Below are positions 19,014-52,869 of a stretch of DNA of 56,092 nt, in pieces. The DNA comes from Chloroflexota bacterium (GTDB taxonomy: Bacteria > Chloroflexota > Dehalococcoidia > Lucifugimonadales > Australimonadaceae), in assembly GCA_028874795.1 (NCBI GenBank), contig JAPPHT010000009.1, positions 1 through 56,092 on the forward strand. The letters are read 5' to 3'. The notes beneath the pieces are model-generated. The model was not told the DNA's origin. It ran no database searches and saw only the letters and a program-made list of their open reading frames with translations. Positions within the stretch are counted from its first letter, which is position 1; each line of letters starts with the position of its first letter. The translations under genes were made by a program, and so were the position numbers.

Positions 19014-19196
19014 ACCGCCACCTCTTTCTCCAGTTACGGATGGGCTGCAGCCCGCGCGCTGCCGCACGTTGCGAACAATCCAGTGGAGCGCGGGGGGCCG
19101 CTGCGTACGCCTGCCGTCCAACTGCGCGCCTTCACGACAGGCGGGGAGATTATACGGAGGAGCAGGTGTACCGGGCAAGCGCGGCGGGTCTGACCC

Positions 19197-19482
19197 GAAC
19201 AAGGTGTCCAAACGGCCCTGGAATCTGCACACCTTGTTGCTGGCGCTACGAGTAAACCTGGGGCTCCATTTGAACACCTTGAGCACCTTGCGTTGCTCTG
19301 CGTAAGGCCACGGCCTGCTTCCTGCAACAAGTGAACAAGGTGTGCAAAGATTTCAAAAGTTGTGCCGTCAACGGGTGTCTCATCCTGTTGCATCGTGTTG
19401 CATCGGGCCGGGATGGGATGGAGAACGGTCATGCAAACCAGCGTAAGGGTTGCGGTGGCGACTACGTAAGGGGCGGGTGTCA
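19197..19482 (+). repeat. Two-copy non-coding element, copy A
   Basis: This ~286-base unit is co-linear with 52573-52869. Conserved scaffold blocks are ACGAGTAAACC (19248), AAGGCCACGGCCTGCTTCC (19304-19322), ACGGTCATGCA (19425-19435) and GTAAGGGGCGGGTGTCA (19466-19482). Between them sit short repeats on both strands: GAACAAGGTGTCCAAA (19197-19212), TGCACACCTTGTTG (19226-19239), TTTGAACACCTTG (19269-19281) and GAACAAGGTGTGCAAA (19333-19348). The 13-base pair TGCACACCTTGTT/AACAAGGTGTGCA is a perfect inverted repeat. No coding frame fits. The rest of the 19014-19502 gap holds nothing else I can name. Confidence 0.8.
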
Positions 19483-52515: not shown

Positions 52516-52572
52516 GCGCGGATTCTAACGGCGTTTCTCATGACTGCACAGGACAGGGTTGAGAGGTGGGAC

Positions 52573-52869
52573 ATCAAGGTGGCCAATCGTCTCCGAATCC
52601 TGGCCATCTTAATCGCTTCTCACGAGTAAACCGAGCAGTCAATCTGGCCACTTGGCCACCTTAATCGAGGGCATTTCCAAGGCCACGGCCTGCTTCCCGC
52701 GATCAAGGGGGCAAGGCGGCCATACAAAACAAAGTCTGGCGACGGAGCCATAGACTTCGTTGATAGCTGAGGACTCGAGCTATAGGCGCGGTCTATAGGT
52801 GCAGCGTGGGCGACGGTCATGCACCCAGCGTAGCGGACGCGGGGTCGACCGGGTAAGGGGCGGATGTCA
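52573..52869 (+). repeat. Two-copy non-coding element, copy B
   Basis: Co-linear with 19197-19482. Scaffold blocks are ACGAGTAAACC (52622-52632), AAGGCCACGGCCTGCTTCC (52679-52697), ACGGTCATGCA (52813-52823) and GTAAGGGGCGGATGTCA (52853-52869). The short repeats here are ATCAAGGTGGCCAAT (52573), TGGCCATCTTAATCG (52601), TTGGCCACCTTAATCG (52652) and GATCAAGG...GGCGGCCAT (52701-52722), in the same places and orientations as in copy A but with a different motif. A hairpin ATAGCT/AGCTAT is near 52763-52783. No coding frame fits. Confidence 0.8.

Follow-up and report, generated by a model that had tools for sequence, protein, structure and literature searches.

A family of short intergenic elements with concertedly changing repeats and a putative cognate ATPase in sponge-associated bacteria

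Layout of the two copies in the window

In this work we focused on a 56,092-nucleotide stretch of a Chloroflexota genome (assembly GCA_028874795.1, contig JAPPHT010000009.1), called the window below, which bears two copies of a short element, copy A (19197-19482) and copy B (52573-52869). Each comprises four repeats, R1 to R4, in the orientation + - - +, interspersed with conserved scaffold blocks, and R3 and R4 each consist of about two 9-base units (Table 1). The blocks ACGAGTAAACC, AAGGCCACGGCCTGCTTCC, GGTCATGCA and GTAAGGGGCGG start at 19248, 19304, 19427 and 19466 in copy A and at 52622, 52679, 52815 and 52853 in copy B. An initial annotation of this DNA, made from the letters alone, had reported the same intervals, the same repeat orientation and four blocks at matching spacings. 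Intervals, orientation and blocks are borne out; its spacings of 49-50, 56-57, 121-134 and 40-41 bases are replaced by 47/46 (A/B) from R1 to the first block and by 56/57, 123/136 and 39/38 between the blocks. It was also right that the copies are non-coding: neither contains a convincing gene, and the right end of both is the 5' region with the ATG of a lost ATPase gene. Copy A, with 283 bp, is slightly off the commonest form, and its tail is made of GTTGCAT repeats, while the tail of other copies is a CCATAGAC...GTCTATGG hairpin. Both copies have a promoter-like site towards the gene on their left, and the ATG of copy B's left neighbour lies 6 nt after the -10 of this site.

Table 1. Features of element copies A and B and of their left flanks
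Feature	Position	Strand	Basis or remark
Copy A R1 GAACAAGGTGTCCAAAC, left edge of the element	19197..19213	+	orthologue left flanks homologous to ~10 bp from the edge
Copy A R2, inverted, GCACACCTTGTT	19227..19238	-	changes in concert with R1, R3 and R4
Copy A scaffold ACGAGTAAACC	19248..19258	+	conserved in the 43-copy alignment
Copy A R3, inverted, two 9-base units GAACACCTT GAGCACCTT	19269..19292	-	concerted-repeat analysis
Copy A dyad core AAGGCCACGGCCTGCTTCC	19304..19322	+	sequence
Copy A R4 and junction block TTTCAAAAGTT, right boundary of the exchangeable cassette	19323..19361	+	orthologous-locus comparison
Copy A tail GTGTCTCATCCTGTTGCAT...GTTGCAT variant	19362..19426	+	resembles the ATPase gene 3' end in gene-bearing copies
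Copy A right end, start codon (CAT 19430-19432) and 5' region of the lost ATPase gene, terminating in GGGGCGGGTGTCA	19427..19482	-	
Copy B R1 ATCAAGGTGGCCAAT	52573..52587	+	sequence
Copy B R2, inverted, CTGGCCATCTTAATCG	52600..52615	-	concerted-repeat analysis
Copy B scaffold ACGAGTAAACC	52622..52632	+	conserved in the 43-copy alignment
Copy B R3, inverted, two units	52643..52667	-	concerted-repeat analysis
Copy B dyad core AAGGCCACGGCCTGCTTCC	52679..52697	+	sequence
Copy B R4 and junction block (..ACAAAGT)	52698..52735	+	orthologous-locus comparison
Copy B putative tail cruciform CCATAGAC..GATAGCT..AGCTAT..GTCTATAGG	52748..52799	+	read from the sequence
Copy B right end with the lost-gene ATG, terminating in GGGGCGGATGTCA	52815..52869	-	
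Promoter-like TTGCCC-18-TATAAT of copy A's left neighbour gene	19148..19178 (approximate)	-	-35 ~21 bp from R1
Promoter-like TGTGCA-17-TAGAAT of copy B's left neighbour gene	52520..52550 (approximate)	-	-35 ~24 bp from R1

The element family and its ATPase gene

Copies A and B are not the isolated pair for which they had been taken but part of a family of elements of ~295 bp. A profile search based on sequence only identified 25 full copies in the source genome. Four sister genomes have about 25-30 each and a fifth has none; in other genera the same search yielded nothing beyond fragments near the E-value limit. Outside the genus nothing was obtained when the class was sampled for the ATPase gene and the phylum for the element itself, and the family is so far confined to this one genus of sponge-associated bacteria. 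The core AAGGCC(AC/GT)GGCCTGCTTCC recurs in the source genome and in four SAR202/Dehalococcoidia-type MAGs. Copies devoid of a gene, termed solo copies, mostly measure 293-298 bp from R1 to GTGTCA, and about a dozen copies of ~1.8 kb (range 1.72-1.87 kb) carry one gene. The edges of the element, determined by eye from 116 entries and from the flanks of orthologous loci, are GA(A/C/T)CAAGG on the left and GGGGCG..TGTCA on the right. Among 43 aligned copies the GAG of the scaffold ACGAGTAAACC is invariant and its ACGAGT near-invariant. No transposase, recombinase or nuclease was found within the element, and a free circular or plasmid form was not seen, observations that weigh against the mobile reading given below.

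In some copies R4 runs into the 3' end of a gene on the opposite strand. Complete gene-bearing copies (e.g. L050 and L051) contain a single gene of ~510-545 codons between the R1-R4 cassette and the right end; its 5' region and ATG match the right end of the solo copies. The 295-bp copies are most likely gene-less derivatives of the gene-bearing form. In the source genome there is no gene-bearing copy with the repeat type of copy B.

The protein comprises a zinc-ribbon-like N-terminus, called from cysteines read by eye in the alignment, a RecA/AAA_25-type ATPase and a C-terminal winged helix. AAA_25 (PF13481; E 6e-13 and 2e-14) is the sole family passing the Pfam cut-off; weak matches were obtained to DnaB-like replicative helicases, to TniB-like PF05621 (E 0.008) and, across the C-terminus, to phrog_296 'DNA transposition protein'. 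The full-length structure model (pLDDT 51.8) is too poor for use. The C-terminal winged helix was modelled with a pLDDT of 84.8, and its best fold matches are of the PadR/LmrR type, with an E of only ~0.015. Viral contigs, phages and plasmids contained nothing close to the ATPase, the matches being distant, at ~28-41% across some 80-100 residues in the P-loop part. The protein looks like a replication protein (Rep).

Several variants were observed. L070, L074 and L078 (G001, G003) belong to a second clade of the ATPase that shares 47-49% identity with P0002. Their layout is the same, with the core GGCCACGGCCTTGTT and repeats of their own, and L070 also shares the right-end motif. In L051, L058, L063, L068, L069 and L073 the ATPase linker (A2 columns 420-450) contains an in-frame VIPAKAGIQS-like insert, whose source seems to be the interspersed repeat GTCATTCCCGC..GGGAATCC. 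The tails of L095 and L096 and the L096 insertion site contain insertions of a different interspersed repeat, CCCTCACCCCAACCCTCTCCCAGAGGGAGAGGG. L034/L243:7490-7704 (G001:C65) is a right half-element only, which starts inside R3; it shares the orientation of a full copy located ~2 kb before it, from which two host-like genes separate it. At L235:4132-4188 a right-end-like sequence lacking the left cassette is found beside genes that are phage-like by eye. In L045 (JAPOOH010000290.1) the gene of a large serine recombinase adjoins a truncated ATPase C-terminus; this recombinase was set aside as a candidate mover, having been seen at this one locus and beside a truncated ATPase gene.

Concerted repeats, recognition helix and cassette exchange

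The repeat unit consists of AAG followed by 5-6 variable bases, and R3 and R4 contain about two such units 9-10 bases apart. Repeat similarity was compared with that of permuted partners in 116 entries, of which 115 are elements and one (L146_4042) is a false match left in the set. The z value was 20.2 for R1-R2 and 18.9, 18.2, 19.2, 18.8 and 19.3 for the remaining five pairs, as opposed to -0.6 and -0.5 for the spacer and flank controls. The ungapped match between R1-R4 of the same element was 9.4-10.4, versus 6.2-6.6 for permuted partners. The concerted change of the repeats, which the initial annotation had attributed to something other than random drift, is thus real and not drift.

The recognition helix of the winged helix tracks the repeats in the 16 gene-bearing copies (Mantel r 0.53, p 1e-4; partial r 0.64). 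TLV was found with AAGRRTGTC (5/5), TLF with AAGRGTGCC (3/3), SKGTLR with AAGGTGTGC (2/2), (A/T)(R/K)RTLR with the GGCC type (2/2) and H with ATTCC/AATCCC (2/2). At helix position 46, V goes with ..TGTC, F with ..GTGCC and A with ..ATGCC; further types are SKG..R with ..TGTGC, (A/T)(R/K)R..R with ..GGCC and K with ..GTTC/GTGC. Residue 46 ranks first and residue 43 third in variability within the domain. The rest of the C-terminus correlates with the repeats as well, and since helix and repeats are linked within the same small element, shared ancestry accounts for part of the correlation. Ancestry does not explain the mutual agreement of all four repeats. Because the recognition helix tracks them, R1 to R4 are most likely binding sites of the element's ATPase protein, a putative role read from sequence comparison. 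Among the causes proposed in the initial annotation, sites co-evolving with a cognate binding protein is the one that fits best. A few related genomes provide ~115 target sites together with 16 recognition helices that match them, a natural series in which the joint change of specificity in a DNA-binding protein and its full set of sites becomes legible, nearly like a code, and testable.

Many copies have a counterpart, similarly oriented, at the orthologous locus in sister genomes. There, homology of the left flanks extends up to ~10 bp from R1 and the tails, from the junction block TTTCAAAAGTT to GTGTCA, are mostly 65-90% identical, while the whole ~165-bp R1-R4 cassette, spacers included, can be unrelated. 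In the clearest cases the identities of tail and spacer are 0.87 and 0.45 (L187/L189), 0.89 and 0.62 (L134/L164) and 0.88 and 0.43 (L176/L185), spacer values of 0.43-0.62 being background; some pairs of the same locus and type have spacers that are just moderately conserved. Cassettes at different loci are up to 92% alike, and the value for gene-bearing L051 and solo L157 is 0.91. The repeat cassette is exchanged en bloc at fixed chromosomal places, and flank and tail are inherited. This exchange was missed in the initial annotation, as was the position of the elements upstream of promoters.

Interpretation and genomic position

We favour as probable a mobile module resembling a Rep protein and its origin, of which copies A and B would be gene-less, non-autonomous members, i.e. 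putative orphan origins (~25 per genome). This reading is based on the gene with its C-terminal winged helix, on the ~165-bp region directly downstream of it and on the swapping of specificity modules. The cassette, which immediately follows the stop codon and comprises R1-R4, the ACGAGT block and the dyad core, would be the protein's cognate recognition region, probably an origin or another assembly site, and the right end of the element would be the promoter region and start codon of the ATPase gene. The earlier likening of the central dyad to a recombination or replication site stands in part, as an origin-like region, by analogy with rep genes encoding a C-terminal winged helix and having their origin just downstream. 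The C-terminal recognition helix would read the 9-base unit (AAG and 5-6 variable bases), so that a shift in specificity would force a change at all four sites. Both ends are retained in the 295-bp copies, which for mobilisation in trans would rely on a matching protein made elsewhere; its role in replication or mobilisation, like its binding to the repeats, we infer. The simplest account of the in-place replacement of cassettes would be a swap in two steps: a new element lands at the left edge of the resident one, and the old cassette is then lost via recombination in the shared tail. L105 retains an older R1 remnant to the left of its own R1. More tentatively, and with more doubt than conviction, the elements may constitute a new mobile class, in which a Rep-like ATPase moves itself and gene-less orphan origins to promoter-upstream sites without a known transposase or recombinase, and which diversifies by cassette swaps in step with the recognition helix. 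If such an ATPase does mobilise gene-less copies, this would be an element class whose mobility is independent of known transposases.

Known systems share some of these properties. In PLE satellites the RepA DNA-binding domain covaries with the repeats of the origin and the modular pair is swapped between elements (PMC8263062), which resembles the pairing of recognition helix and repeats seen here. However, PLEs have an integrase, many genes, one copy per genome and a covarying N-terminal RepA_N domain, whereas the present element has one gene, a C-terminal winged helix, ~25 gene-less copies and no integrase that we could find; Pfam gave no RepA_N match in its protein, and no island genes with an integrase were found. 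The plasmid pRN1 has a poorly conserved, essential stem-loop origin, flanked by conserved sequence, just downstream of a rep gene encoding a C-terminal winged helix (PMC4234260), resembling our element in this domain and in a key region just 3' of the gene. The Rep protein of pRN1 is composed of a prim/pol and an SF3 helicase, in contrast to the zinc ribbon and RecA/AAA_25 domain seen here; no prim/pol and SF3 helicase were detected among Pfam matches, and no free plasmid is known. The iteron-type rep/oriV of SGI1, a chromosomal element, has its oriV downstream of rep (PMC7433901), and in our element as well a rep-like ATPase gene adjoins repeats, putative sites that appear to match its DNA-binding domain. 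Unlike a direct iteron array, they are arranged + - - + within 160 bp around a dyad core, and most copies are gene-less. The element was not classified as a MITE, REP, PLE or pRN element, since the defining features tested were not found.

The elements could instead be ordinary MITEs moved by an unrelated transposase encoded elsewhere, the ATPase being a passenger or an accessory regulator of the MuB/TniB type. They are indeed short, intergenic, multi-copy and gene-less with larger relatives, as are MITEs and REP/RAYT elements, they have hairpins and conserved ends, and the weak TniB-like and phrog_296 matches point in the same direction. Yet neither terminal inverted repeats nor target duplications were seen by eye at the ends of the 116 entries or in the flanks of orthologous loci, the gene between the ends encodes an AAA_25-type ATPase with a winged helix and no known transposase of the DDE or Y1 type, and the recognition region tracks the element's own ATPase. 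The IS200/IS605-type Y1 transposase (PF01797) occurs in only one of the six genus genomes and in none of G000 and G002-G005; it is unsupported as the mover. We regard this explanation as unlikely.

The genomic position of the elements bears on a third reading, in which they are host regulatory cassettes, i.e. promoter-upstream operator arrays with winged-helix ATPase regulators, rewired by cassette exchange. A left gene could be called for 90 solo elements, and 80 of these lie upstream of it, the gene reading away from the element; right neighbours are randomly oriented (39 : 48). In 20% of the copies a promoter-like site pointing towards the left gene was found 10-48 bp from R1, versus 0% on the other strand and in shuffles, and the loci are conserved across species. 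Against this, the neighbour gene calls depend on a GC3-based heuristic, one locus has a gene-bearing copy in one genome (L051) and solo copies in others (L137, L156), and G002 and G003 lack an element at the L096 locus, the genes on either side being contiguous there. Such a regulatory role is rather improbable to us, and we retain the Rep-and-origin-like module.

When only one flank was conserved between orthologous pairs, it was the left in 34 cases and the right in 3. In four genome stretches the difference corresponds to DNA inserted at the right end of the element; three of the inserts carry, respectively, a C5 methylase with a Vsr endonuclease and a GIY-YIG protein, an N6/N4 methylase with an Mrr-like domain, and a PIN_10/DUF433 pair. 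The elements mark insertion places of restriction-modification and toxin-antitoxin genes in sponge symbionts, which are reported to be rich in such genes (PMC5649159). Simple recombination between two element copies was rejected because of the asymmetric flank conservation, and so was an inverted right-end partner enclosing cargo for every element, as few were convincing (L104, L139, L146, L238, L239). In L087 (G000:C23) a second right-end sequence lies ~650 bp beyond the element, before a small unrelated gene, reminiscent of a portable promoter whose start is leaderless (-10 TACGCT, 6-7 nt, ATG).

Base pairing in RNA or single-stranded DNA, with R1 pairing with R2, R3 with R4 and the structure under selection, had also been put forward as the cause of the concerted change. 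The + - - + layout could form two hairpins, and the excess of own over same-type match is largest for R1-R2 (1.39). However, the consensus fold of 43 copies, from an alignment that was not structure-based, has 3 pairs, no compensatory change and -3.66 kcal/mol; covarying base pairs were not seen in it. R2-R3 (1.21) and R1-R4 (1.01), which have the same orientation and are not pairable, agree as well as the pairable R3-R4 (1.01). Given these two observations pairing is not the driver; in addition, separate stems need not share one sequence, and an Rfam scan of the window detected tRNAs only and no family match to the elements. We consider base pairing very unlikely, and the concerted change is better accounted for by the putative cognate protein.

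Assembly errors in multi-copy sequences, at least some of the genomes being MAGs, are hardly credible as the source of the cassette differences, since five assemblies at one locus (L105/L121/L129/L187/L189) have different cassettes, each between a shared flank and a tail that can be aligned, the divergence between cassettes of different loci is at least 8%, and G003 consists of just ~20 contigs.
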